The notes beneath the pieces were generated by a model. The model did not search any database. It saw nothing but the letters and a program-made list of their open reading frames with translations, and was not told where the DNA came from. Below, piece by piece: positions 16,178-37,721 of a DNA stretch of 50,476 nucleotides. Origin of the DNA: a virus; the IMG/VR virus record IMGVR_UViG_3300009182_001870, positions 1 to 50,476 of that record; one strand, given 5' to 3'. Within the stretch, counting starts at the first letter, position 1. Each line of letters starts with the position of its first letter. The position numbers were made by a program, and so were the translations under genes.

Positions 16178-16519
16178 TTATTTAGGAACGCCAGTAATTT
16201 CATTACCTGGTTTTTCATCCGATACCATCATAATAGCATCGTTGTCGGCCAATTGAATTTTTGTAATTGTGCCATCTTCGTTTTCATATTCGGCTGCACG
16301 ACTCCAACGACCGTGTTCTAATAGAATCCATTCTCCTACTTTGACTTCTGTTTGTTCTGGACCCACTGCCCAAACTCGACCCCACCGTGGTTTGATACCA
16401 TCAGCTTTGCCATTATCACTTTTTAAGATAATTCCGCCTTTGGTAATTTCTTCACCAAACTCCATATCGGAGAATAATACGCGATCGCGTAATGGTGTAA
16501 GTGTTCCTGTTACTTTCAT
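16178..16519 (-). CDS. GroES/gp31-type co-chaperonin
   Basis: 113 residues, close to T4 gp31 (111) and longer than GroES (97). Start LTPLRDRVLFSDMEF is the GroES opening, and the mobile loop is recognisable as EEITKGGIIL (GGI-hydrophobic-L anchor for GroEL). It would cap host GroEL to fold large phage proteins such as the capsid protein, as gp31 does. It lies at the end of a late-type operon beginning with the collar fibre, and its start overlaps the upstream gene. Confidence 0.9.
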   Translation of the reverse strand: MKVTGTLTPLRDRVLFSDMEFGEEITKGGIILKSDNGKADGIKPRWGRVWAVGPEQTEVKVGEWILLEHGRWSRAAEYENEDGTITKIQLADNDAIMMVSDEKPGNEITGVPK

Positions 16520-19124: not shown

Positions 19125-19132
19125 TATTTATG
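19125..19132 (-). promoter_or_regulatory. T4-type late promoter
   Basis: Minus strand CATAAATA, 21 nt before the collar-fibre ATG at 19103, with GGAG in between. It overlaps the last codons of the collagen-like fibre gene. Confidence 0.6.
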
Positions 19133-21884
19133 GTTGTATATTTGAACCAATATTTTTCTTAATTTCGTCTACTTCAGCTTTTAATTCTTTAATAGATTCA
19201 ATCAATAGTCCTATCATATTACCGTAAGCAACAGTCAACGTTCCAGTTTCGTCATCAAGTTTAACAACAGCTTCTGGTAAAACTTTTTCTACATCCTGCG
19301 CAATTACACCAGTTTGTCTTATTCCACTGTCTATTCTGGTATAAGTTACTCCTCGTAGTTCACAAAGTTTAGACAATGCGTCTGTAATAACCTGAATATT
19401 ATCTTTTAATCTAGCATCAGAATACGCAGTGACATTACCAGAAGAAGTAATGTCCCCGCCGACGCTCAATCCAGCAGTATGTAATATATAGGTGGAGCCA
19501 TCATAGTACAAATATCTATCTTGAGCTGAATTAAGATAGATAACGCCCGTAGTTCCGCCACTGCGGTATGCGGTAATATCCCCTTGAACAGTTAAATTGC
19601 CATATAATGACATATTAGCACCGTCCGTAGAAGCAAATCCAGCAACACTACCGGCGGAATTATATAACACTTGTCCGTTTGTTCCACCAATTGGACCTGC
19701 ACCGCCGCCAGCGCCCTGAAAGCCTTGACGACCCTGAGCACCTTGACGACCTTGAGCACCTTGGACACCTTGAGCACCTGCCGTTCCTTGTACACCTTGT
19801 GAGCCTACGCCGTTAACTCCTTGAATGCCTTGGTATCCTTGAGCACCCTGTGTTCCTTGAACACCTTGAGAACCTGCCGTTCCTTGTAATCCCTGAGCAC
19901 CCACTGCTCCTTGATAGCCTTGAACACCAAGGGCGCCTTGATATCCTTGTGCTCCTTGAAGTCCCTGAGTACCAATTGCCCCTTGTATACCCTGTGTTCC
20001 TTGAACGCCTTGACTTCCTTGATATCCCTGACTTCCTTGATATCCTTGGTTTCCTTGGAAACCAACAGTTCCTTGACTACCAGTAAAACCTTGACTTCCT
20101 TGATATCCCTGACTTCCTTGATATCCTTGAGGTCCTTGGAATCCAATAGTTCCTTGACTACCAGTAAAACCTTGACTTCCTTGAGCACCCACCGTACCTT
20201 GGAATCCCTGTGCTCCTTGCACTCCCCTGGAACCCTGTGTCCCGTCTAACCCTTGATATCCCTGGGCACCTTGGGCACCTTGGAATCCTTGTGGTCCTTG
20301 AAACCCTTGAGCACCCTGACTTCCTTGATATCCAACTGATCCTTGAGCTCCCGTACTGCCCTGTTTTCCCTGTGCTCCTTGAGCACCTTGATAACCCTGA
20401 CTTCCTTGATAACCCTGACTTCCTTGATATCCTTGAGGTCCTTGGAAACCAGCAGGTCCTTGCGGACCATTTTGATAAGGTCCTAACGGTCCTTGAAACC
20501 CTTGGGCACCCTGTATGCCTTGGGCACCCTGTATGCCTTGGTCGCCCTGAATACCTTGACTTCCTTGGATTCCTTGACTTCCTTGAAAACCTGCGCCGCC
20601 TTGGATACCTTGTGGTCCCTGTGCACCACGGGTGCCTTGAACACCCTGTGTTCCTTGAAAGCCTTGAGAACCTTGTGTTCCTTGAATACCTTGTGCTCCT
20701 TGGAATCCCCTAGAACCTTGTGTTCCTTGAACGCCTTGACTTCCCTGTGCTCCTTGTAATCCCTGTGCACCTTGTGCTCCTTGAAATCCCTGTGCTCCTT
20801 GTAATCCCTGTGCACCTTGTGCTCCTTGAAATCCCTGTGCACCTTGAGCGCCTGTTGAACCCTGTGTTCCTTGAAATCCCTGTGATCCTTGACGGCCGGC
20901 AGGACCTTGAGGGCCGCTTTGATAAGGCCCCAAAGGTCCTTGAGCGCCACTAACACCTTGTGCGCCTCGAGATCCCTGAATGCCCTGACTTCCTTGTGCG
21001 CCTATTACGCCCTGAAGTCCCTGAGCACCAATTGCTCCTTGTATACCTTGTGCCCCTTGAACGCCTTGATATCCTTGATATCCCTGGGCTCCTTGTATAC
21101 CTTGGGCTCCTTGTGCTCCTTGAACACCGTCTGATCCTCGATATCCTTGAACACCTTGAATTCCTTGAACACCCTGCGCACCTTGAGAACCACGTGCACC
21201 AGGAGATCCGGTGATAGCAAATACCCATAACCCGCCAACATCTGGATACGGCCCTCCATTGCCACCTATAATAGAAACATCTAATATTAAAATATTTCCA
21301 CTAAAAGATGTGATTATACCTTCTAAATAATTTGTTGGTACTGTACTATAAAATGCTCTTACATATTGCCCTACTGTAAATGCAGTATTTGATGAACTTA
21401 GGTTAGTTACAAATGTTTTTTGACTTAGACTAATTAAATTTGGAGTATTTGATGTTAATCCTGCATAACCTAAACCAAGAGAACCTTGGGAACCTTGAAC
21501 TCCGTGATCTCCCTGAACGCCCTGATTTCCAATAGCGCCCTGACGACCTTGACTTCCCTGTGATCCTGCACCTCCTTGAATACCTTGACTTCCTTGTGCT
21601 CCTTGAACACCCTGATTTCCTTGTATACCTAGTGATCCTTGCGATCCTGGTGTTCCTTGAACGCCTTGATATCCCTGACTACCCTGGGTTCCCTGTACAC
21701 CTTGATATCCTTGTGATCCTTGACTTCCTTGTGGACCAACTTGTGTGTATCCTAAAATTAATTCTTGTGCTTGAGGCACTGTAATATAAAGATCGGTCCC
21801 TGAATCTTGTACAACAAAGTAAGTTGTGCCAGAATTAGCAAAGGTTAAATGCGGCAGGGATATAAGATTTGGGCGAGTGGTCAT
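19128..21884 (-). CDS. Collagen-like tail fibre with S74 self-cleaving chaperone
   Basis: 918 residues. A short N-terminal domain (1-55) is followed by Gly-X-Gln triplets such as GSQGYQGVQGTQ, interrupted by a globular insert near 144-225 and resuming to about 715. The third position is almost always Gln, with few Pro or Lys, so helix stability would rely on Gln/hydrophobic contacts instead of hydroxyproline. A beta-domain follows, then a C-terminal S74 intramolecular chaperone starting near residue 821 with SDARLKDNI (Ser/Lys dyad) and ending in a coiled coil. S74 domains trimerise the fibre and then cut themselves off. Confidence 0.92.
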   Translation of the reverse strand: MTTRPNLISLPHLTFANSGTTYFVVQDSGTDLYITVPQAQELILGYTQVGPQGSQGSQGYQGVQGTQGSQGYQGVQGTPGSQGSLGIQGNQGVQGAQGSQGIQGGAGSQGSQGRQGAIGNQGVQGDHGVQGSQGSLGLGYAGLTSNTPNLISLSQKTFVTNLSSSNTAFTVGQYVRAFYSTVPTNYLEGIITSFSGNILILDVSIIGGNGGPYPDVGGLWVFAITGSPGARGSQGAQGVQGIQGVQGYRGSDGVQGAQGAQGIQGAQGYQGYQGVQGAQGIQGAIGAQGLQGVIGAQGSQGIQGSRGAQGVSGAQGPLGPYQSGPQGPAGRQGSQGFQGTQGSTGAQGAQGFQGAQGAQGLQGAQGFQGAQGAQGLQGAQGSQGVQGTQGSRGFQGAQGIQGTQGSQGFQGTQGVQGTRGAQGPQGIQGGAGFQGSQGIQGSQGIQGDQGIQGAQGIQGAQGFQGPLGPYQNGPQGPAGFQGPQGYQGSQGYQGSQGYQGAQGAQGKQGSTGAQGSVGYQGSQGAQGFQGPQGFQGAQGAQGYQGLDGTQGSRGVQGAQGFQGTVGAQGSQGFTGSQGTIGFQGPQGYQGSQGYQGSQGFTGSQGTVGFQGNQGYQGSQGYQGSQGVQGTQGIQGAIGTQGLQGAQGYQGALGVQGYQGAVGAQGLQGTAGSQGVQGTQGAQGYQGIQGVNGVGSQGVQGTAGAQGVQGAQGRQGAQGRQGFQGAGGGAGPIGGTNGQVLYNSAGSVAGFASTDGANMSLYGNLTVQGDITAYRSGGTTGVIYLNSAQDRYLYYDGSTYILHTAGLSVGGDITSSGNVTAYSDARLKDNIQVITDALSKLCELRGVTYTRIDSGIRQTGVIAQDVEKVLPEAVVKLDDETGTLTVAYGNMIGLLIESIKELKAEVDEIKKNIGSNIQP
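19690..21560 (-). repeat. Collagen-type 9-bp tandem repeats
   Basis: The DNA encoding the Gly-X-Gln stretches consists of degenerate 9-bp units, (GGNNNNCAA) on the minus strand, interrupted only by the globular-insert region (about 21200-21450). This low-complexity DNA makes long spurious open frames in the other frames and is a likely place for length variation by slippage. Confidence 0.85.
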
Positions 21885-21940: not shown

Positions 21941-24900
21941 TTAAATTGTTTTCCTTGGAAATATTAAGGATACTGGTTCTATAGTTTTGGTAGCTAATGT
22001 ACTTTCTATCGTAATACGATCTATATAAAACTCAAAATGGTTAAAATCAAAAGTTTTAAGTTTATTAACAATCCTAAAACCTTTTCCAGGCAATGCATAA
22101 CATAGTACCACAATATTTAACCATCCTAAGCCAAGGGCAGTTGCAGTTTTTACAAACAGTGGTGCAACTTCGGGGTTTACAGTAGCAACTGATTCCAAAT
22201 TTTTCCTCATATTTTGAATACTACTAGGATATAATGATGGCTTAGGGGCGCTGGGGAACCACGGGCCAATATTGGCACCACCGCCGCCATCTGGAAAGGT
22301 AACCGTAACACCACTATTAGTTGACGTGGTAGCAACCAATGGCAGTGGTTTTATTTCAGAACTAATATTATCTAATGAATCCACTATTTCAACATATACT
22401 AAATCATAAATTGGGTTTCCTGCATTGTCTAAGGTAGTAAGTGATTTAATATTTCCATAGTTAAATGATCTATTATAAAAATTACGTTCTAATGCAGGTG
22501 CATAACTTGCAGCACTTATAAATTTTTGTATGCCATATTCTAAATACATTTTAAGATCTTTCTGCACCCCAAAATTGGGGTCATTAGCTCGATACAATAA
22601 CTTGGGTGGAAACATATCGGTATTTGTAATAAAATTATTGTATTCGTTTCGTTTTTCAATACTTAGTAATGGTTTTACATATATGTTTGTATAGGGCGTA
22701 GCTGCGTCTATTACGGTTAGTTTGAATGTGCGCAGATTTAATTCAAAAGGAAAATTAATAGTATCAGGTTTAACTGAATTGAACCCGTATGGTGCTGGAC
22801 TAGCAATAATAGTAGCAGTATATACTCCGCTGGAAATAGGAGTACCAATTATATTTCCATCAGGGTATAGGGTTAATCCGTCGGGTAATTTACCAGAATC
22901 AATCCCATATTGTAATGGATATATATTTGAAGTTTGTGTACTTTCTACTTTTAATGTACTGGGCGTTCCATTTATAATTGTTCCCAAATCTTCGGGTGTG
23001 ATCCAATTTATTTTATCAAAATCTTTATGTACTATTGTCAATGTAAATGTATTTTTGGCAATAGTGCTTACCCCAGTGCGTGAATTTTTTTTGGTTGCAA
23101 TTATACTTACGGGATAAGTTACCAAATAATCAGTTTGTGTGGAAACATATCCATACAAAAAACCTGTACTGGAATCTAAATTCAACCCAGATGGTAGGAC
23201 AGTATTTGTACCAGTAGTATAAGTTATAGGACCAAGTATTGGGTATGGATCATATGCAGTTACTGGAATATATTGATTTTCTCGATCGCTAAAAACGCCT
23301 AAAAACGATGGATTTGCAAATATAGGAGTAATAATTTGATTTAAATTGCTATATACATTCTGCACTTGCATAATAAATGTTTGAGTACTGGAATAATTGT
23401 TGTTACTAGCTGTTACTGAAAATGTATATCTATCAAGTGTACCTGGGTTAGTGTCAGTTGACAAATATCCAGATAAAACGCCATTTGATGATATAGTTAA
23501 TCCTCTAGGTAACGTATTATAATTAGATGATAATTTATAAGTAATTGGATAATTTGTAGGGGCAATTGTAGGTGGGGTAGCAATTAATGGAATATTAACA
23601 TATTCTTGATCAATAAAAATATTATTGTCAACTGTTCTTAATTCAAATGGATTAGTCCCATATGACCAAATTGGGGCACTTACAGCATTAACATCAATAA
23701 TAAACGTACTATCTATTATTGTTTGTAAAATAGATGCTCTAACTACAAATTTATGTCTTTCTAAATTAATTACTGGTGTTGGCGTTCCAGAAATATATCC
23801 ATTTGATTGAAATGTAAGACCTGGCGGCAATGTACCTGCTAATAATTTATATGTGGCATTGATGTCCGAGGCCTCCACTATAGTACTGGTGAATACCCCA
23901 CTAGTTGCGGTAGTTAAGAGACCCGGATTTGTAAACCATTGAAATTTGTTGGTATGTGCAGATGCGTAAATTGATAGGGTATAATTGTTGTATACTGTAA
24001 AATGATTGGGGGAATTACTGTCTGTAATTGCAATAGTAAACTGATATAAACCTGCCCTAGTTGGAATACCACTTATAACATTTGAATTTAATGTAATTCC
24101 TGGGGGTAACGATCCTTTGATTACTGCTGTACTGTATGGGGCCAACCCTCCAGATGCAGATAAGGTTATTGGCGGATATGATGTATTAACTACTCCCTTT
24201 GTTAATTCTCCTGAGCTTGGTAATGCAACAATTACAGGAACTGCAACATTTAAAAATACTGTAGAGCTGTTTGAATGTCCGGAAACATTTGATACATAAT
24301 ATTTAAAACTATCAAAACCTTGATATTGAGGATCTGGCACATAAGATATGTTTGTACCAAAAATATTTACTGTACCGTGTGACGGGGAGACACTGATACC
24401 AATGTTTGTATAAATTCCATCTACAATTAAATTAATTGGAGTATTGAAGGAATTAAATGCAACAGTTTGACTTGAAATGGATGTAGTTGGAATTCCAGGA
24501 AGCACTGTTATTAATATTGTGCTAATATTTGAAGTTCCATAAGAATTAGATGCAGTAAATTGTAGATAGTCTGCCCCGTAATAACTATACCGCGGTGTAT
24601 ATACTAATTCTTGGCCTAAAATTGTAGCAATGCCGTAGTTGGGCGCAGACACAATATTAAACGATGTTGGATTATTGATAGATCTTAATTGTATAATATT
24701 GTTACTTGAATTTGATAATACCGTTACTTCTGAAGTTAATGTAACTGGGACTTCTGGTGTAGGGGATACTACACGTATTAATATGTTACTAAAAGATGAA
24801 TTTCCTGCTGGACTAACTGCCGAATAAGTAAAATTATCAAAACCTGAAAAATTTAAGTCTGGAGTATAGTAAAGATGTTTGCCTAATGAAACTGATATTG

Positions 24901-26182
24901 TACCGTTTGAAGGATTGGTTGTAGAAATAGATGTATATACACCAGTAATATTAGTAGTGATTAAATTATTAGTAGAGTTAATTAATACAGTTTGGTCTAC
25001 GGGATAAGATATTGGTGGGGTTAAACTATCTAGTAAACTTGTACCAATGGGAGGACCTAACCCGGTGACGGCGTCCCAACCTGCTGTACCAGCATATCCA
25101 CTAGTAATTTGATCGTTGTTTGTTCCTACAGTAATATCAAAGAACGATCCAGTACTAGCATAGAATATCGCATTATATTCAGCACTGGATCGCTGTATTC
25201 CTGTTAATTTTTGCATACGGGCAAGTATACCTGCAACTGTGGGGCTTGCTAAACTAGTCCCCCCGTATCCTGTCACACTGCCATTAAAATACAAAGAATA
25301 TGCATTCATTGGTGCAGAAATATCTGGCACACCACGCATTGATAAAACGGTTGGATTGCCAGTTACGCCGTTAATAATAGGTGTATAATATAATCCAGCT
25401 TGCCAACTAGGTCGTGAAAATAATGCACTAACACCACCACCACCGCCCCAGCCGTTACCAAAACTGGGATCTCTATTATCATCTGTTTCATTTGCTCGAG
25501 TATTATCTGGATTCAAATATAAATGTGTGCCGCCAATGGATATTGCGTTAGGGCTTGAAGCTGGATACATCGTCTCTAATGTTGGATATCCATCAAGTGT
25601 TGATCCCCAATCGCCAGAAGCTACACATACTGCAATTTTATTTTCAGCCGCCGTGGCAAGTGTAGATTCTAAAAACGTAGCATCAGTTGTACACCAGCTA
25701 ATAGTAAGTATGTGATTTCCGTCGCTGATTGCACGGGCAACTACATTTCGCCACCCAATGTAGCTATTCTGTCCTATATAAATTGTAATATCAGCAGCTG
25801 GCACCATGGTAGCCACGCAAAAGATATCTACGGTATTTTCTCCGCTGTAATTTATATTACTATAAAAATTTCCACTACTGCCATCTACTAACACCTGTTT
25901 AATGGTTGGAGCAACAACTGTTGAATTAATAAGTCCAGCAGTTCGTAAATCTGCAAATGATTTATTAAGATCACTTTGTAGGAAGCCGCCCCCTAAGCTA
26001 ATAATGGCAACTTTGATTCCTGCACCATCACTTGCAGGTATCCCATAGGCAGTAGCAATCTGTGGCGGGGTCACTGTTCCTGCAGATGGTATTGCTGTGG
26101 GCATCAATCCCGTTGCATTATCTACTAGGTCTATTTTTTTTAATGAAGACGGTACGGCCTTAGTTGTTTCTGAATTAGACAT
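21941..26182 (-). CDS. Giant tail protein: sedolisin (S53) protease plus Ig-like repeats
   Basis: 1413 residues. Residues about 35-375 form a sedolisin-family serine-carboxyl peptidase with the full set of residues: Glu115 and Asp119 in SGENTVDIF, oxyanion Asp191 in SGDWGS, and the nucleophile Ser310 in GGTSLASP. The usual large propeptide is missing. Then come Ig/cadherin-like repeats (about 385-640) and He_PIG-type repeats with the tell-tale GTLPPGL...SNGYISGTP pattern (about 650-1150). The C-terminal 250 residues are unassigned, with LYRANDPNFGVQKDL. It is probably a tail fibre or baseplate protein that digests host surface protein. Confidence 0.85.
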   Translation of the reverse strand: MSNSETTKAVPSSLKKIDLVDNATGLMPTAIPSAGTVTPPQIATAYGIPASDGAGIKVAIISLGGGFLQSDLNKSFADLRTAGLINSTVVAPTIKQVLVDGSSGNFYSNINYSGENTVDIFCVATMVPAADITIYIGQNSYIGWRNVVARAISDGNHILTISWCTTDATFLESTLATAAENKIAVCVASGDWGSTLDGYPTLETMYPASSPNAISIGGTHLYLNPDNTRANETDDNRDPSFGNGWGGGGGVSALFSRPSWQAGLYYTPIINGVTGNPTVLSMRGVPDISAPMNAYSLYFNGSVTGYGGTSLASPTVAGILARMQKLTGIQRSSAEYNAIFYASTGSFFDITVGTNNDQITSGYAGTAGWDAVTGLGPPIGTSLLDSLTPPISYPVDQTVLINSTNNLITTNITGVYTSISTTNPSNGTISVSLGKHLYYTPDLNFSGFDNFTYSAVSPAGNSSFSNILIRVVSPTPEVPVTLTSEVTVLSNSSNNIIQLRSINNPTSFNIVSAPNYGIATILGQELVYTPRYSYYGADYLQFTASNSYGTSNISTILITVLPGIPTTSISSQTVAFNSFNTPINLIVDGIYTNIGISVSPSHGTVNIFGTNISYVPDPQYQGFDSFKYYVSNVSGHSNSSTVFLNVAVPVIVALPSSGELTKGVVNTSYPPITLSASGGLAPYSTAVIKGSLPPGITLNSNVISGIPTRAGLYQFTIAITDSNSPNHFTVYNNYTLSIYASAHTNKFQWFTNPGLLTTATSGVFTSTIVEASDINATYKLLAGTLPPGLTFQSNGYISGTPTPVINLERHKFVVRASILQTIIDSTFIIDVNAVSAPIWSYGTNPFELRTVDNNIFIDQEYVNIPLIATPPTIAPTNYPITYKLSSNYNTLPRGLTISSNGVLSGYLSTDTNPGTLDRYTFSVTASNNNYSSTQTFIMQVQNVYSNLNQIITPIFANPSFLGVFSDRENQYIPVTAYDPYPILGPITYTTGTNTVLPSGLNLDSSTGFLYGYVSTQTDYLVTYPVSIIATKKNSRTGVSTIAKNTFTLTIVHKDFDKINWITPEDLGTIINGTPSTLKVESTQTSNIYPLQYGIDSGKLPDGLTLYPDGNIIGTPISSGVYTATIIASPAPYGFNSVKPDTINFPFELNLRTFKLTVIDAATPYTNIYVKPLLSIEKRNEYNNFITNTDMFPPKLLYRANDPNFGVQKDLKMYLEYGIQKFISAASYAPALERNFYNRSFNYGNIKSLTTLDNAGNPIYDLVYVEIVDSLDNISSEIKPLPLVATTSTNSGVTVTFPDGGGGANIGPWFPSAPKPSLYPSSIQNMRKNLESVATVNPEVAPLFVKTATALGLGWLNIVVLCYALPGKGFRIVNKLKTFDFNHFEFYIDRITIESTLATKTIEPVSLIFPRKTI

Positions 26183-26494: not shown

Positions 26495-27046
26495 TTAAAC
26501 GCTTTCCATTTTTACGTTTATTCTATCCCAATCCATAATTTTCCAAATATTTTCCAAATATTTTTCCTTGTGGCTTTGATAATCTAGTGCCCAGGCGTGT
26601 TCCCACCAATCTACTAATATCAGTATATCATTTTTGATTTCGTGATTAACAATAGTTTTGATTTTGCCATCTGTACTCAAATAAACCCATCCGCTGCCCT
26701 GTATTTTCATTGCAACATCTTTAAAATCATCTTTGAATTTATCCCAACTTTTGAAATTTTTATCGATAAATTCTAAAATTGTACCTGTAGGTTTGTTATT
26801 TCCTTTAGGAGGTCTTAATTGTGGAAAATATATGCTGTGTAAAAAGGCACCTGCTTCGTTAAAATCTGCATCACCTTCGCCCGCATTAAATCTGTCTACA
26901 TATCCTTTGTATAATTGACCAAAATGATATTCAATAGTTTGTTTACTTTGACTGCGACCTAAACCGCCTTTGGGATATGGCAACGACACTTGTACCAATT
27001 TCTTTTTTGGAGTCGACTCGTTTAATAATTTGATAAAATTGTACAT
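26495..27046 (-). CDS. sod: Iron/manganese superoxide dismutase with capsid-targeting-like leader
   Basis: 183 residues. All four metal ligands of the Fe/Mn family are present: His41 (TIEYHFG), His70 (FLHSIYF), Asp146 and His150 (DWWEHAW). Tyr49, equivalent to Tyr34, is kept, but the gateway HH pair is Leu-Tyr. Four before His70 is Gly66, as in Mn-type enzymes, while the outer-sphere Gln is replaced by His135, as in some archaeal Fe enzymes; metal choice is open. The first 18 residues, MYNFIKLLNE/STPKKKLV, are extra and end L-N-E, resembling a T4 capsid-targeting peptide. No Shine-Dalgarno is visible. Confidence 0.92.
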   Translation of the reverse strand: MYNFIKLLNESTPKKKLVQVSLPYPKGGLGRSQSKQTIEYHFGQLYKGYVDRFNAGEGDADFNEAGAFLHSIYFPQLRPPKGNNKPTGTILEFIDKNFKSWDKFKDDFKDVAMKIQGSGWVYLSTDGKIKTIVNHEIKNDILILVDWWEHAWALDYQSHKEKYLENIWKIMDWDRINVKMESV

Positions 27047-27653: not shown

Positions 27654-28925
27654 TTAAATTTTTAACGATCCTGGAAATCTTTCTCCATCATCTTTAATTG
27701 CTACTAACCAAGCACTAGTTACACAGCTTTTCATATTCTCCATCCATTCGTTGGGAAAATAAGTTTCTCTTCGATATTCTTGGAATCTAATTGTGGTATT
27801 GTCAATAAAATTAGCCATATATGCATCTGTATAATATAAGAAGCAATTTTCATTCCAATAGCTAACGTGCGTGGGATCTTGGAATGCTCCACGACCATCT
27901 GTACTAGGTACTTCAATGAATGCCCACCCGCCGTGTGCCAATACACGATGTATTTCACTCATAATTTTAGTTTTGTCGTACAAATGTTCAATAATGTGAC
28001 TAGCGTTCAGTACTCCAACTGAATTGTCAGGTAACGGAATCCCGTCATTCAAGTCTGCTTTCATATCCGCAGTATCTCGTAAATCAATAGAGAAATATTC
28101 AGGATATGGATTTAACCCTCCTCCAATATCTACTTTCATTAGGCCCTTTAGATCTGCATCACGCTCGGCCAATTTGCGAGCGTATTGATTAAACAGTTCT
28201 TTGGTTCTAACTTGGATTTCTGCGTTACGTTCTGTCATAGATGTATTAACACCTGTAACTCGATAAATGTACAATACCTTGGGAATATGGACAGTTTTAG
28301 TTATTAAGTATGTCCTAATACATAAGTCGTGATCTTCACAGACAAATGCGTTTTCATCATATCCGCCAGCTTCAAAATAGGCAGTTGTTCTCCAAGATCT
28401 AACGTGATCGGGGGCAAACCAAATATAACAAAAACTTTGACTTGTTGGTTTAAAACTATTCATAGAATATAATTCACGATCTCTAAAATTATATTTGGTG
28501 TAAGTCCATCCATTTTCTTTAATATATGGTATAAAATCTTTATTCATGTCTAGCGTGGCATTGTCACTATAGACGAACCCAACTTCATCATCTTGGTACG
28601 CTATGTTTAATTCTGCCAAACAATCAGGTGTTAACATATCGTCGTGATCAACTTCAACTAAAACATCGCCAGTGGCCTCCAAACAAGCCATTTTTTTAGC
28701 CATACCAATATTTTTAATTGGAATTCTAGTATCAACTACCTTAACTTTATTATTGCTGCGTATTGTTTCTGGAATATGTGCAGGGAGACATTTGTTATTA
28801 GTTAAAATAATCCATTCCCAGTTATTGTAAGTTTGTGCTAGTAGAGAATCATACAGTTCTATTAAAAACGGAATGTTTTCAGGACTATGCTCGCCTGTGA
28901 TAATGCTATATTTTAATTGTTTCAT
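27654..28925 (-). CDS. Fusion of GT2 glycosyltransferase and SAM methyltransferase
   Basis: 423 residues from ATG 28925 (a TTG 9 nt upstream would overlap the previous gene). Residues 1-230 are a GT-A fold glycosyltransferase: YSIITGEHS opening, acceptor-metal motif VEVDHDDML, later AGGYDE and CEDHDLCIR. Residues about 260-400 are a class I methyltransferase with VDIGGGLNPYPEYFSIDL and NASHIIEHL, then VLAHGGWAFIEVP. It would transfer a sugar and methylate a product. It follows a larger fusion of the same two kinds of domains. Confidence 0.9.
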   Translation of the reverse strand: MKQLKYSIITGEHSPENIPFLIELYDSLLAQTYNNWEWIILTNNKCLPAHIPETIRSNNKVKVVDTRIPIKNIGMAKKMACLEATGDVLVEVDHDDMLTPDCLAELNIAYQDDEVGFVYSDNATLDMNKDFIPYIKENGWTYTKYNFRDRELYSMNSFKPTSQSFCYIWFAPDHVRSWRTTAYFEAGGYDENAFVCEDHDLCIRTYLITKTVHIPKVLYIYRVTGVNTSMTERNAEIQVRTKELFNQYARKLAERDADLKGLMKVDIGGGLNPYPEYFSIDLRDTADMKADLNDGIPLPDNSVGVLNASHIIEHLYDKTKIMSEIHRVLAHGGWAFIEVPSTDGRGAFQDPTHVSYWNENCFLYYTDAYMANFIDNTTIRFQEYRRETYFPNEWMENMKSCVTSAWLVAIKDDGERFPGSLKI

Positions 28926-28926
28926 T

Positions 28927-31900
28927 TTAATCAAAGAAGAATAAGTGAGTTAGACGACCAGTGTCGTTGTTTTGTCCAAAGTAAGTTCCTGCTGAATGAA
29001 TGTTTTGTGCATCCATTATAACAAGTCTATTATACAGGTTTCCTGCGTCCGCCACAACTTCAAATTTTGTAGCATCTAAAAATCCCCCACTAAATGCATC
29101 ATTGATATTTGGATCATTCATATGTGCGGCTTGATTGATTTTTGAACGCATTAATCTTGTTCCGCTTTCAATAGGAGCATTAGGTGTCAAATAAATCATA
29201 GCAGCCCACTTTTGTAAATCGTGATGATAAACTTGTGGGTCATTTGCTGTGGTTATTTGAAAACAACCGTTAGGCATAGATTGATCAAATTTAACAATTT
29301 TTTGTCCTATAATATTTTCAAATGCTTCCACAATGCCTGGTGGATGGTAATGCTGCGTAGATCTCTTTCCCTTGTACCATTTAATATCTTCCTTAAATTC
29401 TACATTCAAAGCAAATTCTCTAATCTGATCTGGATTTGAATAAAAGTTGTCTACTACAAACAATTTTTTATCTAATTGTGTATTAATCATAAATGGATTT
29501 AATTTTTGTGGTAAGTTTGATTTTGCAATATCATGGAGTGATTGCACATAATTTCCAGTGTCAACATAAGCGTTAGAATTAATCATTAGATGGTATGTAG
29601 GAAACGGATTCTTTCTATTTGGATCAACTAATCTAGTTGTAATTTCTAGCATCTTATCATATTGTTGTTGTTGATTATAAATCTCTGCCAACGCAACTAA
29701 ATGATCATTGCGCTCAGGCGCAAATTGTTCGCTTAATATTAAATTTTCAATAGCACTATCAATATCGCCAATAAACTTTTGATCAGAGCTTAAAAATATC
29801 AATGCCATATAGGCCATTTCGTGAATACCGTTAGCAGTTTTGGTATTACTAAAATCGTGAGTGGTGTTCAAATATTCAGTAAAATAATAGATACAACGTC
29901 TAGAAAATTCTATCTGTTGTGAACTACCTAGAGGAAACGATCCTTGACGAGCATCATGATAACTCTTGCCAATATACCAAAAGTGATACAAGTCAGTTAA
30001 TATAGAATTTTCCTTGATCATCTTTTCTTCAAGAATCAATGCATCGCTAATAAATTTAGTAGGGTTGCTCCAACTTTGTCCTTGTGGAAATCCAATTTGT
30101 CTAATTTTATTAGGTAAATCATATCTTTGAAAATTTTCGCCAATACCTTCAATAGGGCAATAGCTTGTTTCGTGACAGGGATCGTGGTTAAATCTCCAGG
30201 GCATATGTGCATTCCACATCCAAGCACGATAATAAATTGAGCTACCTGTAATAGCAGTAATATGGAAAGAATGGATTGACAAATCTTCAAATGGTGTCCA
30301 ATCCATGTCTTCGTCAACCTCTAATACTTCGTCACAGTCCATTTTTAAGATCCAATCACACCCATGATTGGTATTTTGTGTGTACTGCATCAAATGATCT
30401 CGGTTCCATCCAAATCCTTGCCAACCCTCTTCAACATTGTATAATATACCAGGAATATTTTTATCAGCAAAGAATTCTCGAACAATTTCGTCGGTACCGT
30501 CAGTTGAACCATTATTTTGTATTACATAATAGTCTATATATTTGTAGCAAGATTCGAGCATTCTTTTTATAACAGTTGCTTCGTTCCTAAACATTGTATT
30601 CATTACAATTTTAGGTTTTTTGCTCAATGTTTTTTTCTTAATAACTATTGCCAAATCATCAAATCGGCCTTTGAGGTGCCTATAATCTTCTACAACATAA
30701 TCGTAATTTTTAGGTATAGAGTTTATAATAAGTTGAAGATTTTCAGTACTTGTAATATCTTCAATAATTAAAACACCATTGTCAGTCAGCGTATCTAAAT
30801 ATAATTCAACACATTTTATTTGACTTTCCACTGTATGTGGCCCGTCATCAATAATAACATCAAATCCTTGGGGATATAAATCTTTAATTTGATTTTTTAC
30901 TTCTATGTGATATGCATCAGTGATAATATATCTAGTTTTGGTAAAATCTAAATTTTGTCTATTTTTAATAGATAATTTATTTTCTATATCAACTAAACAA
31001 AAATCAAAATTAGGTAGTAAATTACTCCATAAAACTGAAGATCCACCACCCCAAACGCCAATCTCCAGTAGCGTGCCTTTCTTATCTATATAATTGTTAA
31101 GATATTTCCCATATAGTTTATCATAAGAATGCCAGTCTGCTTTATCTGTGCCGTTTTCTAAATTATTTCCCCAACCATTAATTTGAAATTTATTAAGTAT
31201 TTCTACAATTTTATCTTCACAGTTAGTTTGTATTGTTTGATTATCTGTCATTTCTTGTTTTATATAAAATTCTTTTGGGTAATTAAAATTGTAATATTCT
31301 ACGCAATTAAAATTAAATTGTGAATGAGCGCGGGGATTACCAGTCCCTATCCATTTCTCACTTTGCCACCGTGCTAGACCGTTAGTGTTGTCGTATAAAA
31401 AGTTTGTATCTAATGTAGAAATATACTGGCTATTTGCCCACCAAAAATTGCCTGCGTAAAATAATCCAGGTATTACAATATCGTTGTGGTAAGACGTATC
31501 CAGCAATTCTACACTTGTACAATCGTATTCATTGAGATATTGTACACTATCTTTCCAGTTTACTATATTAAAATATTCTAAATATTTTCTCCAAGCAATA
31601 ACATTATCGTTAAAAGGAGAATTTATACCGTGTGTAACACCCTTGCTATGAAAAAACAAAATCTTATAATCACGATTTTCTTGGCTAAAATTCCACAAAG
31701 ATTCTAAGGTGTTGGCTTCCAACACATGATCTGAATTATATTTAATTCTCGATTTATTAAAAACTTTTGGTAATGGTAAATTGCCATTGATGCCTATGTG
31801 AATAAATTCACAAGCATCATACAATCCGTTGGCAACGAGAAGATTCATATGCTCTAAATACAGTTCCTCCCAATTTCCCAATTGGCCCAAATGATAAAAT

Positions 31901-31935
31901 ATTGCTATTTTAGGCAAATTAATTTTTATATTCAT
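28927..31935 (-). CDS. Multi-domain fusion: glycosyltransferase-like, methyltransferase, GT2, TPR-like and 2-oxoglutarate oxygenase-like
   Basis: 1002 residues. Residues 1-225 resemble a small glycosyltransferase-like domain (FFHSKGVTH, AGNFWWANSQYI). Residues 270-435 are a class I methyltransferase/cephalosporin-hydroxylase-like domain (LLEIGVWGGGSSVLW; VIIDDGPHTVESQ). Residues 440-620 are GT2 (VMNTMFRNEATVIKRML, metal motif Asp533-Cys-Asp535). Residues 700-800 look like helical repeats. Residues 820-1002 resemble an Fe(II)/2-oxoglutarate hydroxylase with His904-His-Asp906, distal His980 and an Arg near 993. It would glycosylate, methylate and hydroxylate one substrate. Substrate unknown; the collagen-like fibre is one candidate. 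Confidence 0.85.
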   Translation of the reverse strand: MNIKINLPKIAIFYHLGQLGNWEELYLEHMNLLVANGLYDACEFIHIGINGNLPLPKVFNKSRIKYNSDHVLEANTLESLWNFSQENRDYKILFFHSKGVTHGINSPFNDNVIAWRKYLEYFNIVNWKDSVQYLNEYDCTSVELLDTSYHNDIVIPGLFYAGNFWWANSQYISTLDTNFLYDNTNGLARWQSEKWIGTGNPRAHSQFNFNCVEYYNFNYPKEFYIKQEMTDNQTIQTNCEDKIVEILNKFQINGWGNNLENGTDKADWHSYDKLYGKYLNNYIDKKGTLLEIGVWGGGSSVLWSNLLPNFDFCLVDIENKLSIKNRQNLDFTKTRYIITDAYHIEVKNQIKDLYPQGFDVIIDDGPHTVESQIKCVELYLDTLTDNGVLIIEDITSTENLQLIINSIPKNYDYVVEDYRHLKGRFDDLAIVIKKKTLSKKPKIVMNTMFRNEATVIKRMLESCYKYIDYYVIQNNGSTDGTDEIVREFFADKNIPGILYNVEEGWQGFGWNRDHLMQYTQNTNHGCDWILKMDCDEVLEVDEDMDWTPFEDLSIHSFHITAITGSSIYYRAWMWNAHMPWRFNHDPCHETSYCPIEGIGENFQRYDLPNKIRQIGFPQGQSWSNPTKFISDALILEEKMIKENSILTDLYHFWYIGKSYHDARQGSFPLGSSQQIEFSRRCIYYFTEYLNTTHDFSNTKTANGIHEMAYMALIFLSSDQKFIGDIDSAIENLILSEQFAPERNDHLVALAEIYNQQQQYDKMLEITTRLVDPNRKNPFPTYHLMINSNAYVDTGNYVQSLHDIAKSNLPQKLNPFMINTQLDKKLFVVDNFYSNPDQIREFALNVEFKEDIKWYKGKRSTQHYHPPGIVEAFENIIGQKIVKFDQSMPNGCFQITTANDPQVYHHDLQKWAAMIYLTPNAPIESGTRLMRSKINQAAHMNDPNINDAFSGGFLDATKFEVVADAGNLYNRLVIMDAQNIHSAGTYFGQNNDTGRLTHLFFFD

Positions 31936-32540
31936 TGATTAATTTTTGGAAAAGAAACTCTAGTATCATTAACTAATTTGGTTAGCATTCTAGATGGGTG
32001 TAAATTTTCGTAGGCTTGATCTTTGATAAAAACAGAATTCCAATCAACCCAGCCTCCCTCGTTTACATTGGCATTATAGATATATGTTTCTAGCATTTTT
32101 ACAGGAATTTTATTATATCGTCCCCAAGTTTCTAAACCTTGGCCTGCATCAGGATTAAATCTCCAACAATCAACGGGCCAAGCATGGTATGGCCAAACTG
32201 ATGGTGCGCTGCAATACATTATACCTGTTGGTTTTAAAATACGTAAACATTCCATAAATGTTAACCAAAACATTGAAGAATGTTCAAAACACGACGATGT
32301 TATTAACACATCAAATGTGTTATCTGCAAAAGGATATACAAACGGATCTGACAATACAACATCCACGCCGTTGCCTGCTGCAAAATCCACCCCAACATAT
32401 TCAACAACATTTGGTGTAATATGATCTTTCAAAGAACCATTTACATTTTGTGATCCAATTTCAACTACTGAAATATTTCCTAAACGGGCGCAGTATGTAT
32501 CAAAAAAGAGTTTTGCTGCTTTGTATGCGGAATCGTGCAT
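31932..32540 (-). CDS. SAM-dependent methyltransferase
   Basis: 202 residues, class I fold: VVEIGSQNVNGSL as motif I, VGVDFAAG as motif II and VYPFADNTFDVLITSSCFEH as the Methyltransf_11-type post-motif region. The C-terminal part has WPYHAWPVDCWRFNPDAG, common in phage and LPS-cluster methyltransferases. It overlaps the large fusion by ATGA, so all three are probably translated together. AGGAAAG precedes the ATG. Confidence 0.9.
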   Translation of the reverse strand: MHDSAYKAAKLFFDTYCARLGNISVVEIGSQNVNGSLKDHITPNVVEYVGVDFAAGNGVDVVLSDPFVYPFADNTFDVLITSSCFEHSSMFWLTFMECLRILKPTGIMYCSAPSVWPYHAWPVDCWRFNPDAGQGLETWGRYNKIPVKMLETYIYNANVNEGGWVDWNSVFIKDQAYENLHPSRMLTKLVNDTRVSFPKINQ

Positions 32541-32585: not shown

Positions 32586-33602
32586 TTATCTTTTTAACTG
32601 ATCGGCCAATGCAAAACTGGCAATGTTTTTTCCTTTAGATTCGCACATAATATCAAACTTATCATTAAATGATAAAGCCCAATCATTTACAGATTTATTC
32701 CAATAAAAATCACTGTGTGCCCTAAGTTTTTGTTTTTTGTAGCCTTGTGCAAGTAATGCAGAATGATCTGGCATTACAATAGTGTCATGACCCACGAGGT
32801 AATCTTCACGGCTAACAGAATAGTGCATAGTAGGCCGGATACCACGCCAAGACTGAATAACCCGATCGACACGAGCGTCCACGGGCGAAATGTAATCGCC
32901 TGTTTTGATCCAATTGTGATGCACATCCAAAACGATAGGCACCAAGTCACTAATAGAAAGACAATCATCTAATCCCCAAGCATTTTCTTCATTTTCAATT
33001 GTGATGCAATTTCTTGCTTCATTACTAAGTCGGTCATATGCGGCACGAATACCATCTGGACCCAACTTGCCAGAAATGTGTACATTAATTTTAAAATCTT
33101 GAAACGTTTTACCGTAGCCCATCCACCGTGCCATACTAGCGTGGTATTCAAATTCTTCTATTGAACGTTGTACAATACCCGGATTGACGCTTGCTAGAAC
33201 AACAAACTGGCCTGGATGCATACTAAGCCTGACATCATTGGCACGAGCAATATCACCCACTACTGCAAAGTTACGCTCGAGATAATCAATAACATCTGGA
33301 CGTAACCAAAAATAACTCCAATTAGCGTGGGTATAAGCAGGTAGAATATCACTGCTTATACGCACCATACGCAAATGTGGGTCTAATGTGGAAACTCGTT
33401 CAACCAACTTACGAACAGATTCAATGTTTTGGACCATAAGATCCCAGAGTTTTTGTTCAGCAACATCTTTAGTTTGTCTGTCAAGCCAGGTGATTGTAGT
33501 GCCGCCTGTAGTATATTGTTTGGCATCGTCGTTAGCACCAACACCGTCAACTTGATCTGGACGATCAATCCACTTACACGCAAAACCAATACGTTTAATC
33601 AT
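32586..33602 (-). CDS. uvsE: UV-damage endonuclease (UvdE/UvsE)
   Basis: 338 residues from ATG 33602, inside the stop of the upstream 56-residue gene; further upstream starts are not needed. The TIM-barrel motifs of UvdE are present: FACKWIDRP at the start, RISSDILP, SMHPGQFVVLASVN, TIENEENAWG, VLDVHHNW and MPDHSALL. It cuts 5' to UV photoproducts in an ATP-independent repair route. DNA repair in phages often uses DenV or photolyase instead, so this is an alternative solution. Confidence 0.95.
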   Translation of the reverse strand: MIKRIGFACKWIDRPDQVDGVGANDDAKQYTTGGTTITWLDRQTKDVAEQKLWDLMVQNIESVRKLVERVSTLDPHLRMVRISSDILPAYTHANWSYFWLRPDVIDYLERNFAVVGDIARANDVRLSMHPGQFVVLASVNPGIVQRSIEEFEYHASMARWMGYGKTFQDFKINVHISGKLGPDGIRAAYDRLSNEARNCITIENEENAWGLDDCLSISDLVPIVLDVHHNWIKTGDYISPVDARVDRVIQSWRGIRPTMHYSVSREDYLVGHDTIVMPDHSALLAQGYKKQKLRAHSDFYWNKSVNDWALSFNDKFDIMCESKGKNIASFALADQLKR

Positions 33603-33765
33603 TAATAACTTTCTGAATAGACCATGAACCGTCTTTGTTGTCAACCCATTCCAATGTATCGGCTTCTTTCCAACCAACTTGATCTAATAGTTCTTGAGGT
33701 AATGGCAGTACTAGATCACCGCTGCCATCATCTGCCTCTTCAACAGTTACCGTCCATTGGGTCAT
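33595..33765 (-). CDS. 56-aa AbrB/SpoVT-like protein
   Basis: Found in the gap. MTQWTVTVEEADDG then LVLPLPQELLDQVGWKEADTLEW is the swapped-hairpin AbrB pattern of antitoxin or regulator DNA-binding domains. Its stop overlaps the UvdE start by 8 nt, and its own start overlaps the next upstream gene by ATGA. Small phage proteins with this look are common; it may be a regulator. Confidence 0.75.
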   Translation of the reverse strand: MTQWTVTVEEADDGSGDLVLPLPQELLDQVGWKEADTLEWVDNKDGSWSIQKVIND

Positions 33766-33954: not shown

Positions 33955-33974
33955 ACACTATTTTACACTATTTT
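33955..33974. repeat. 10-bp tandem repeat at a gene end
   Basis: ACACTATTTT occurs twice in a row, spanning the stop codon of the UDP-xylose synthase gene. Short and of uncertain meaning; it lies ahead of the 58-residue membrane protein. Confidence 0.6.
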
Positions 33975-34889
33975 ACGGAAATAGTCAATCGTATCAACTA
34001 GACCATTTGCCAATATCACTGATGGTTCCCAATTCAATATCATCTTAGCCTTGGTAATATCAGGTTTCCGTTGTTTTGGATCATCTTGTGGTAGTGGCAA
34101 GTAAATGATTTTACTGGCACTATTAGTCATCTCAATAACAGTTTCGGCCAGTTCTTTGATAGTAAATTCTCCAGGATTGCCAATATTAATTGGACCGTGT
34201 TCATTACTGGCCATAAGTGACATCATACCATCCAAATTATCTTCAAAATAACAAAAACTACGAGTTTGACCACCATCGCCGTAAATTGTGATATCTTCCC
34301 CGCGTAGGGCTTGAACGATAAAATTACTAACTACTCGTCCATCGCCTATGGCCATTCTTGGACCGTAGGTATTGAAGATACGCATAATCTTTACATCAAC
34401 ATTGTGTTTACGATGGTAATCCATAAACAGGGTTTCAGCAGCACGTTTGCCTTCATCGTAGCAACTACGAATGCCGATTGGATTTACATTGCCCCAATAT
34501 TCTTCTGGTTGCGGATGTACAGTAGGATCGCCGTAACATTCGCTGGTACTGGCCTGTAAAATCCTAGCACCAGTTCGTTTGGCCAGACCCAACATATTGA
34601 ACGCACCGATGACACTAGTCTTCATTGTCTGTATTGGATCGTGCTGATAATGTTGTGGACTTGCGGGACAGGCTAAATTGTAAATTTCATCTACTTCAAC
34701 ATATAGTGGGATACAAATATCTTGACGAATAATTTCAAAATTTTTGCAGTCAAGTAAATGTTCGATATTTTTTTTGCTGCCTGTAAAATAATTGTCCACA
34801 CAAAGAACGTGATGACCTTGTGCAACTAATCTATCACACAGGTGGCTACCAAGAAATCCAGCACCACCAGTTACTAGGATTTTTTTCAT
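33963..34889 (-). CDS. UDP-glucuronate decarboxylase (UDP-xylose synthase)
   Basis: 308 residues. NAD-binding [38 protein letters not shown], the catalytic STSECYGDP with YDEGKR (YxxxK), and [10 protein letters not shown] identify the UXS branch of extended short-chain dehydrogenases: UDP-glucuronate to UDP-xylose and CO2. With the reductase and cytidylyltransferase next to it and glycosyltransferases nearby, it supplies sugar nucleotides for a phage-directed glycan. Confidence 0.93.
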
Positions 34890-35665
34890 AGTTTGCTGAT
34901 TGCTTCTTTCAAAGCATCTGCAATTGGACGAATTGGAAACACCGCCTGTAATTTATCCGTTGATAAAATACAGTTACTTCGCGGAGCAACAACTGCATTA
35001 ACAAATTCATCTTCAGTGAAGAATTCTTTTTCAATGCCCATCATACTGACAATTTCTTGAGCATTACTAAATCCAGGATTACATACATTGTAAATTCCTG
35101 TAGGTATAGTTTGATCAACTGCCATCTTTACTGCAACGGCAGCAACATCCGGCATATAACTCAAACTGTTATCGTAACTGATCAATTTGTTGTACTTCTT
35201 CATTTTGGTCAAGAAGTTTTTAGGATGTTCGTAATCACCAAATGGCATACGAATACGCAACAAATAACTCTTGTGCATAAATGGCTCAAGCATTTTCTGA
35301 CCAAGTGATTTTGATCCGCTATAAAAACTTCCATTATCAAAATTGAAGTTAGGCTCGTCTAGTTCAGTAAAATGTTTATCATACCCTGTATAAACACACC
35401 CACTGCTGATATGCACAATAGGAATATTAGGATTTGCCAATTCAAGTTGTACTGGCCAAATCACATTGCCACTAATTGTGTCTTGTTTGTAAATTTCACA
35501 AGCATCAACATTAGGTGCGCCAGTATATCCAGCAGCATTGATAATGACAGTTGTATCTTCAGGAAGTGCGTCCGTGTGACTAATCCAATTATACGATCGT
35601 CGTTGATTGAAAAGTTCGTGGGAAATGTGATTGGCTACATAACCGTGTCCAATAAGAGTAATCAT
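34886..35665 (-). CDS. RmlD-like nucleotide-sugar reductase
   Basis: 259 residues. Short-chain fold: [11 protein letters not shown] nucleotide site, [19 protein letters not shown], and YSGSKSLGQ with the YxxxK pair. It resembles dTDP-4-dehydrorhamnose reductase and the related NRS/ER enzymes. Overlaps the UDP-xylose synthase by ATGA, so it may act on the same nucleotide-sugar pathway. The exact sugar cannot be read from the sequence. Confidence 0.85.
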
Positions 35666-36150
35666 TCTGGTGCCTTTATAAGTTCAGGTGAGTGTTGTGG
35701 TAAGTCGGCTTCTTTATTGCTGCCTATTTTTTTAGCATTTTCAAGTCTTGCTGTTCTTTCACGAAGTTCGCTAGAACCATAAATGTGATCGCGCTTGTGA
35801 TAATGTAATTCAATACCATTGTTCATACACCATTGCTTGCCGGTAAAGTCTCTATTCAAATATTCATCACTTAAAAAACGAATGTGAATAGTTTGTGTTT
35901 GCAATAGTTGTAGTAGATCAAATTCAGTTTCATAAACTAAAATTTCATCTACATACTTACAGGCTTGCAATTGTACATAACGTTCATATGAACTTTGTAC
36001 TGGTTTATTTTTAACACCAGGTCGATCAATAGTTGGATCAATTTGTAATGCAACTATCAAATAGTCACAAAGTTGTTTTTCCATTTTGAGCATAGTAACG
36101 TGCCCTGCGTGTAATAAATCAAAACTGCTACAGTTAAAACCAATTTTCAT
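35662..36150 (-). CDS. Sugar/glycerol-phosphate cytidylyltransferase-like enzyme (copy B)
   Basis: 162 residues. Same signatures as copy A: IGFNCSSFDLLHAGHVTML and a C-terminal SSELRERT. DPTIDRP is shared exactly with copy A. It adds a disordered C-terminal tail of about 30 residues. Here it is embedded in the sugar-nucleotide operon and overlaps the reductase gene by ATGA. AAGGAT precedes the ATG. Confidence 0.88.
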   Translation of the reverse strand: MKIGFNCSSFDLLHAGHVTMLKMEKQLCDYLIVALQIDPTIDRPGVKNKPVQSSYERYVQLQACKYVDEILVYETEFDLLQLLQTQTIHIRFLSDEYLNRDFTGKQWCMNNGIELHYHKRDHIYGSSELRERTARLENAKKIGSNKEADLPQHSPELIKAPE

Positions 36151-36296: not shown

Positions 36297-36779
36297 TCAA
36301 TCCTGAAATTCATTGTCCTCGCGGTGTCCTTGACGACCGGCCATATTGCTATCAGTTTCACGAACTTCTACTTTACAGCACCAAACACGTTGGGCTTCTT
36401 CACTACCACAGTTGGGTAAAAAGATTGTGTTTACATATTCATACAAGAAGTCAGCAAGTCCTTCGCAGCCAGTCTTTTCAACTTCTGTAATTTTAGCAAG
36501 TTTCAAACGACCAAGTTCCAACAAGTGTTCACGCATTGGATCATCTTGTGCGACCAACAAAGTATGATCAAACCACTCTTCAAGATTTGCCTTAAGTGGT
36601 TTCAACCCGCCAAAGTCTGTACACCAGTTTCTAGCATCAAGTGTATCACACTCAAATTCAAAGTGGAAACTCATTGCGTAACCGTGAATTAGATTACAGT
36701 GACTTTGGGCACGCCATTGACGATATGCAACGGGGCCGATTTGCTTGTATGTTTTTGTACTGAAATATTTCTTTGCCAT
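36297..36779 (-). CDS. queD: QueD/6-pyruvoyl-tetrahydropterin synthase homologue
   Basis: 160 residues. It makes 6-carboxytetrahydropterin (step 2 to preQ0 and queuosine) from the FolE product. CNLIHGY (residues 28-34) replaces the CxxxHGH of the family: the second zinc His of the pair is Tyr34, so the metal site is altered or rescued by another residue such as His27 or His39. EWFDHTLL and VRETDSNMA carry the catalytic Asp/His and Glu. FolE is encoded at 46396-47115. A role in making 7-deazaguanine for DNA or tRNA is possible, but QueE and QueC are not in this window. Confidence 0.88.
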   Translation of the reverse strand: MAKKYFSTKTYKQIGPVAYRQWRAQSHCNLIHGYAMSFHFEFECDTLDARNWCTDFGGLKPLKANLEEWFDHTLLVAQDDPMREHLLELGRLKLAKITEVEKTGCEGLADFLYEYVNTIFLPNCGSEEAQRVWCCKVEVRETDSNMAGRQGHREDNEFQD

Positions 36780-37097: not shown

Positions 37098-37721
37098 TTA
37101 ACGGCTTTGAACAACCTTATCGGCCAACCCGTATGCAACTGCTTCTTCAGCACTCAAGAATGTATCAAACTTCATAGTAGAAAACATTTCTTCATAAGTT
37201 TTGCCAGCAGTATTGTGTTTGACATATAGTTCAGTTAAGCGTTTGTTAATACGTTGACTTTCTTCAAAACTACGTTTGGCATCTTCAAATTGCAGTTCTT
37301 GAACGTGTACACTGCCACTTGTACCACGTGTACCTGAACTAACACGATGTACCATTGTGCGTGATTCAGGCAATACAAATCGTTTACCGGCAGCACCTGC
37401 ATTGGCAAGGAACGAGCCCATACTAGCGGCCTGTCCCATAACATAAGTACATACATCCGGTTTAACAAATTGCATTACATCATAAACGCTAAGTCCAGCA
37501 GTAACTAATCCACCGGGGCTGTTAATGTACAAGTGAATGTCCTTTTCGCTGTCGGCACTTTCCAAATGTAGCAATTGTGCAACTACAATGTTAGCACTAT
37601 GATCATCAACTGGACCATTTAGGAAAACAATGCGCTCATTAAGCAAGCGACTAAAAATATCAAAAGCACGTTCGCCTTGACCGGTCTTCTCGACCACCAT
37701 TGGGATTAGGTTATTATACAT
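37098..37721 (-). CDS. clpP: ClpP protease
   Basis: 207 residues, the same length as E. coli ClpP. The Ser-His-Asp triad is complete: Ser100 (GQAASMGSF), His125 (MVHRVSSG, instead of the usual MIHQP) and Asp186 ([10 protein letters not shown]). The handle helix and YINSPGG are present. It should form a 14-mer chamber and pair with the phage ClpA or with host ClpA/ClpX. It lies 31 kb from clpA, in an early operon starting at 40414. Phage ClpP can also serve as prohead protease in lambdoid phages, but this is of housekeeping type. Confidence 0.95.

Follow-up and report, generated by a model that had tools for sequence, protein, structure and literature searches.

A five-part phage protein with transferase, methyltransferase and oxygenase domains and its putative role in modifying collagen-like tail fibres

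The fusion gene and its surroundings

The window, by which we mean the whole stretch of DNA analysed here, is itself a 50.5-kb virus record, and its gene content suggests a large aquatic T4-like phage. A 76.7-kb IMG/VR record shows 100% identity to the window across the 15 kb compared around the gene of interest, and the two may come from the same sample. The gene is intact, running on the minus strand from ATG to TAA, and encodes 1002 aa in which five parts can be told apart, here called NT, MT, GT2, TPR and OX. The features on which the analysis rests are as follows.

28927..31935, minus strand: coding sequence of the five-part fusion (NT-MT-GT2-TPR-OX), 1002 aa (ORF and domain scans)
31192..31935, minus strand: NT domain, residues 1-248, an unnamed GT-A-like transferase domain (55-member alignment, AF2, Foldseek)
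30637..31161, minus strand: MT domain, residues 259-433, a SAM methyltransferase of the MycE/TylE sugar-O-methyltransferase type (Pfam Methyltransf_24; profile against PDB)
29854..30618, minus strand: GT2 domain, residues 440-694, with a DxD at D533-C-D535-E536 (Pfam Glycos_transf_2; alignment; PDB)
29515..29856, minus strand: TPR-type helical repeat, residues 694-807 (a 54-homologue profile matches consensus TPR proteins)
28930..29481, minus strand: OX domain, residues 819-1002, DUF6445 Fe(II)/2OG oxygenase fold with H904, D906, H980 and R994 (Pfam, alignment, AF2, Foldseek)
31932..32540, minus strand: small SAM methyltransferase, the upstream gene, with a 4-nt overlap with the fusion (Pfam Methyltransf_11; junction)
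27654..28925, minus strand: GT2-methyltransferase fusion (GT2-MT), 423 aa from its ATG, the next gene downstream (Pfam; neighbourhood scans)
33963..34889, minus strand: nucleotide-sugar dehydratase/epimerase, GDP_Man_Dehyd/Epimerase (Pfam)
34886..35665, minus strand: RmlD-type (dTDP-4-dehydrorhamnose reductase-like) reductase (Pfam RmlD_sub_bind, 1.2e-9)
35662..36150, minus strand: cytidylyltransferase-like protein (HldE/RfaE type), nucleotide-sugar activation (Pfam CTP_transf_like, phrog_7878)
19128..21884, minus strand: collagen-like tail fibre, the proposed substrate, with 198 G-X-Y triplets and a fibre-chaperone-like C-terminus (translation; phrog tail fibre families; composition)

A preliminary description of this DNA had the fusion coupled to its neighbours, and the junctions bear this out: the small methyltransferase gene overlaps the 5′ end of the fusion through an ATGA, whilst a 1-nt gap separates the fusion stop from the GT2-MT start codon at 28925. 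It had also placed both GT2-MT and a further methyltransferase behind the fusion. The former does lie downstream, but the latter is upstream by the direction of transcription. Other genes are interspersed. A UvdE-type UV endonuclease homologue (32586-33677, minus strand; 3.8e-37) sits inside the sugar-gene cluster, and a homologue of iron/manganese superoxide dismutase (26495-27046, minus strand; Sod_Fe_C, 1e-22) is found between the modification genes and the fibre genes. A 1413-aa protein (21941-26182, minus strand) carries a subtilase (S8) domain and, behind it, numerous Ig-like repeats (He_PIG, Big_9). Sequence similarity further suggests QueD-like (36297-36779), FolE-like (46396-47115), ClpP (37098-37721), GroES (16178-16519), peptide deformylase (6372-6872) and DnaJ (6881-7714) homologues.

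Domain composition of the fusion

All five parts previously proposed for the ORF are supported by domain scans, profiles, alignments and models. Methyltransf_24 (residues 290-394), Glycos_transf_2 (449-539) and DUF6445 (823-1001) score above the Pfam curated cut-offs. Profile searches of the PDB with NT and with OX returned chance matches only, and fold comparison was therefore used for these two, with AF2 models of the single domains rather than of the full chain.

The C-terminal domain matches DUF6445 (PF20043) with 24.5 bits in the full protein and 33.1 bits in isolation, against a cut-off of 24. The HxD and distal His pointed out before are present as H904/D906 and H980, accompanied by R994, and H904xD906...H980...R994 is invariant in an alignment of 73 homologues. 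Modelling, the check that had been proposed for a jelly-roll in this part, gave a 2OG-oxygenase fold at pLDDT 94.3; amongst the Foldseek matches listed, the closest solved folds are PHD2/EGLN1, OGFOD1 and HygX (E 3e-5 to 5e-4, probability about 1.0). Neither the PDB profile search nor the 50 Foldseek matches listed included a lysyl hydroxylase. By its metal triad, arginine and modelled double-stranded beta-helix OX belongs to the Fe(II)/2OG oxygenase superfamily, and turnover is predicted. DUF6445 oxygenases are labelled "minor coat protein" (phrog_1644 / GenBank) in S-SSM7, S-WAM2 and other cyanophage records. We rejected this PHROG label for the C-terminal domain because it has the fold and active-site residues of a 2OG oxygenase, and the label on the cyanophage DUF6445 genes is likely a misannotation. 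A literature search covering few subscription journals returned no paper naming DUF6445.

For the central parts the assignments come from sequence profiles. A nine-sequence MT profile matched the PDB entries of MycE (3ssm, 7e-14) and TylE (8ia9, 1e-13), and D364 and other acidic residues, the SAM/metal motif, are invariant in the alignment; MT is thus of the MycE/TylE type by profile and is predicted to O-methylate a 6-deoxyhexose. The Glycos_transf_2 match scores 35.9 bits, D533/D535/E536 is invariant across 54 homologues, and the GT2 profile finds the flagellin glycosyltransferase GmaR in the PDB (E 6.7e-9).

The glycosyltransferase-like reading of the N-terminus is plausible, yet weaker. 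NT matches no Pfam family, and sequence searches detect no characterised relative. H15, E73, H96, G162, W165, W166 and E193 are conserved in a 55-member alignment, in which no DxD is conserved. NT is a genuine conserved domain and stands alone in the marine phage AG-345-E08 and in S-SRM01. Its model (pLDDT 90.5) gives weak, mixed GT-A/nucleotidyltransferase matches to PDB folds in Foldseek (TM about 0.3-0.45). Against viral models (BFVD) the matches are strong, comprising uncharacterised phage proteins, "glycosyltransferases" of Klosneuvirus and Harvfovirus, and a 638-aa viral entry, M1IF74 (TM 0.76). Judged by its length and accession, M1IF74 is presumably an A064R homologue. A064R of the chlorovirus PBCV-1 is a 638-aa protein with two rhamnosyltransferase domains, D1 and D2, and a 2-O-methyltransferase domain, D3; D2 is cation-independent and belongs to no known family (PMC9614988). 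From the model comparison we infer that NT may be of the A064R-D2 kind, which would fit the missing DxD and the observation that NT is often fused to a methyltransferase or encoded next to one. The related viral contigs gathered to tie NT to A064R-D2 held phage and other viral loci and no verified chlorovirus A064R.

It could be argued that some of these domains are catalytically dead scaffolds and that the fusion works chiefly as one glycosyltransferase, as NT has no DxD and no sequence-detectable characterised relative. We consider this very improbable, given the invariant metal- and 2OG-anchoring residues of OX, the DxD of GT2 and the SAM/metal motif of MT. Moreover, NT has an invariant set of its own, and glycosyltransferases that are cation-independent and do not depend on a DxD are known (A064R-D2, PMC9614988). 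The anatomy of the fusion is real and well supported; its chemistry is predicted.

Modularity of the layout

Over several hundred loci two pairs can be recognised, NT+MT and GT2-TPR+OX, with their members either fused or adjacent and in varied order. There are about 30 distinct GT-TPR-OX proteins, and other arrangements include GT-TPR with a separate OX gene, MT-NT-GT-TPR, NT-GT-TPR-OX and MT-GT-TPR-OX. The preliminary description knew of no phage protein of this layout, but the same five-part order is found on L107, L110, L120 and L121 as well as in the window, and on L113 and L119 too when the methyltransferase profile is relaxed. We therefore rejected the idea of a uniquely new architecture. 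In a tree of the GT2-TPR core, the window falls beside the GT-TPR-OX proteins of L189 and L183 (support 100), whilst the five-part lineage of L107 lies elsewhere; the methyltransferases occupying this slot in L107 and in the window share only 21% identity. The separate positions of these two lineages indicate that the layout arose at least twice, built, as judged from sequence, from the exchangeable pairs NT+MT and GT2-TPR+OX.

Association with collagen-like genes

Tail fibres with collagen-like repeats are widespread among phages; the window encodes one on the same strand as the cassette, 5.8 kb away and not adjacent to it. The constant neighbour of the enzymes is GT2-MT, as the GT2-TPR+OX core, fused or as adjacent genes, is almost always found beside it. 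An independent scan for GT2-MT recovered 63 distinct phage loci, and the following counts use the 40 with at least 4 kb of upstream sequence. OX is present in 39/40, GT2-TPR in 34/40 and a second 2OG oxygenase in 20/40. A collagen-like ORF accompanies 27/40, two or three of these having few triplets or lying on the opposite strand; in the other 13/40 none is visible within the available sequence. On L025 the gene order is three collagen-like fibre genes, the second 2OG oxygenase, GT2-TPR-OX, GT2-MT and further genes that appear to be virion structural genes, all on the same strand, with ORFs that overlap or abut through the cassette.

Some of the neighbourhood signal could simply reflect co-location, since the host-recognition regions of T4-like phages gather fibre genes as well as glycosyltransferases. 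The enzymes might then act during infection on a glycan of the host surface (O-antigen or capsule), remodelling it to block superinfection, with the fibre genes as mere neighbours in a variable region. This is how glycosyltransferases encoded in hypervariable regions of T4-like phages of pelagic waters have been interpreted (PMC7029224), and the nucleotide-sugar genes beside the fusion would fit any glycan. We nevertheless regard such a role as unlikely. Loci with NT only and without OX provide a contrast, as collagen-like genes are found in 0/29 of these (Fisher 1e-9), and this absence near NT-only glycan clusters is left unexplained by remodelling of the host surface.

The same holds for bacteria. 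In the Thiothrix order, a collagen-like (GAT/GAQ) gene on the same strand immediately precedes the GT2-MT homologue in 8/9 loci (matches at E <= 1e-40 only), an arrangement that superinfection exclusion does not account for, and in two of these loci GT2-TPR is the next gene. Operons of this group (L272 5587-9747; L353, L355) combine collagen-like genes, GT2-MT and GT2-TPR, sometimes with DUF6445, and Thiothrix itself carries OX, GT2-MT and a collagen-like gene together. At E <= 1e-50, GT2-MT was found in 1/369 sampled gammaproteobacteria, this being the query genome itself, and only 1/67 of the other bacterial OX loci contain a collagen-like ORF. In Synechococcus phage DSL-LC02 (L014 3824-5977), a fusion of TPR, FkbM methyltransferase and radical SAM/SPASM directly precedes the DUF6445 gene, and a collagen-like gene is close by.

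The second oxygenase is prolyl-4-hydroxylase-like (2OG-FeII_Oxy_3) and is encoded upstream of GT2-TPR-OX (L025 3207-3785 and relatives); the window has no such gene. Where it is present, the proline content of the collagen repeats is at least 15%, and where it is absent this content does not exceed 14% (15 vs 11 clusters, p 2e-5). The exception is L385, with repeats of about 60% Pro and no second oxygenase on its 4.3-kb contig. Only three phylogenetically independent pairs are fully supported, and these are concordant in most pairings but underpowered. A prolyl-hydroxylase-like neighbour that tracks the proline of the fibre is again left unexplained by a host glycan as the target. In the fibre of the window the Y position is mostly Gln and Pro is about 8%, whilst across the cassette-associated collagen repeats Lys makes up 0.2% of X+Y on average. 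With Lys nearly absent and Pro low in the window fibre, this is not a simple story of lysyl or prolyl hydroxylation.

Another virion protein might be the substrate instead, for example the 1413-aa S8-protease/Ig-repeat protein, whose gene is located on the stretch from the cassette to the fibre gene; phage S-SCSM2R, too, has an S8 family protein annotated close to an OX gene. We think this quite improbable, as among the genes surveyed the partner that recurs in both phages and bacteria is the collagen-like gene.

Proposed mechanism

What was computed here comprises the domain identities, the fold and active-site residues of the oxygenase, the conserved cassette and the association with collagen genes in phages and bacteria. 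On this basis we consider it probable that the fusion is a multifunctional virion-maturation enzyme that modifies the collagen-like tail fibre of the same phage, a substrate suggested by the gene neighbourhood. This neighbourhood goes beyond the five-part observation made before in that it names a substrate, one at which the glycoproteomics of phage fibres suggested in the preliminary description was also aimed.

In the following scheme we infer which substrate is modified, in what order, with which sugars and at which hydroxylated atom. Before the fibre trimerises, TPR and GT2 would bind its extended Gly-X-Y chain and place a first sugar on it, the acceptor probably being Ser/Thr or a hydroxylated side chain. 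Hydroxylation, of either the fibre or this sugar, would fall to the DUF6445 oxygenase, in the manner of lysyl and prolyl hydroxylases acting on collagen. NT might extend the glycan with a sugar of the 6-deoxyhexose type, which the MycE/TylE-type MT domain would then O-methylate, and the GT2-MT fusion, together with the small methyltransferase encoded upstream, could continue the glycan. The dehydratase, the RmlD-like reductase and the cytidylyltransferase would supply the activated sugar. Modification of the fibre would probably serve its stability, the tuning of host-receptor binding or protection from proteases.

More broadly, we lean slightly towards the view that tailed phages and Thiothrix-group bacteria possess a modular collagen-modification pathway of their own, made up of GT2-TPR, the DUF6445 oxygenase, GT2-MT, an optional prolyl-hydroxylase-like oxygenase and exchangeable NT/MT parts, here gathered in one five-part protein. 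Such a pathway would hydroxylate, glycosylate and O-methylate collagen-like fibres, and would have originated independently of the collagen hydroxylase-glycosyltransferases of animals and giant viruses. If true, this would constitute a parallel in bacterial viruses to animal collagen maturation, give DUF6445 a biochemical setting and explain why oxygenases and sugar-modifying enzymes lie beside fibres in aquatic T4-like phages. The reading yields concrete predictions for mass spectrometry of virions, as well as candidate enzymes for recombinant collagen modification.

Comparison with known systems

As far as the accessible part of a review of prokaryotic collagens extends, bacterial collagen-like proteins of the BclA type are glycosylated and a bacterial prolyl 4-hydroxylase is known; that part describes no phage modifying enzymes and refers to viral collagen hydroxylation and glycosylation for giant viruses only (PMC8968730). 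The BclA glycan is rhamnose-based and O-methylated (PMC6222408). The genes considered here differ from the BclA system in being borne by phages and Thiothrix.

Single parts of the fusion have known counterparts. The MT domain resembles MycE and TylE, but would act on a protein-bound sugar within the fusion. The GT2 part resembles GmaR, from which the fusion differs by its proposed collagen-like substrate and by the TPR and oxygenase joined to it. PBCV-1 A064R is likewise a virus-encoded fusion of glycosyltransferases to a sugar O-methyltransferase, and fusions of NT with MT are recurrent in phages. A064R lacks an oxygenase and a TPR part, however, and the N-glycan that it builds is carried by a capsid protein (PMC9614988).

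A parallel in overall design is provided by human LH3/PLOD3 and mimivirus L230, which likewise carry a glycosyltransferase and a C-terminal Fe(II)/2OG hydroxylase on one polypeptide; in LH3 an accessory domain lies between the two catalytic ends, and the substrate is collagen, where that of the fusion would be collagen-like (PMC6082870, PMC9614988). The components are nevertheless different. The oxygenase of the fusion is a DUF6445 domain without a PDB sequence match above chance and with a fold nearest to PHD2/OGFOD1, GT2-TPR takes the place of the LH3/L230 glycosyltransferase, and NT and a methyltransferase are added. Nor is the collagen lysine substrate matched, the phage fibres being almost without Lys. 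By analogy, the fusion may work like LH3 and L230 without being a member of their group, having been put together from different protein families.
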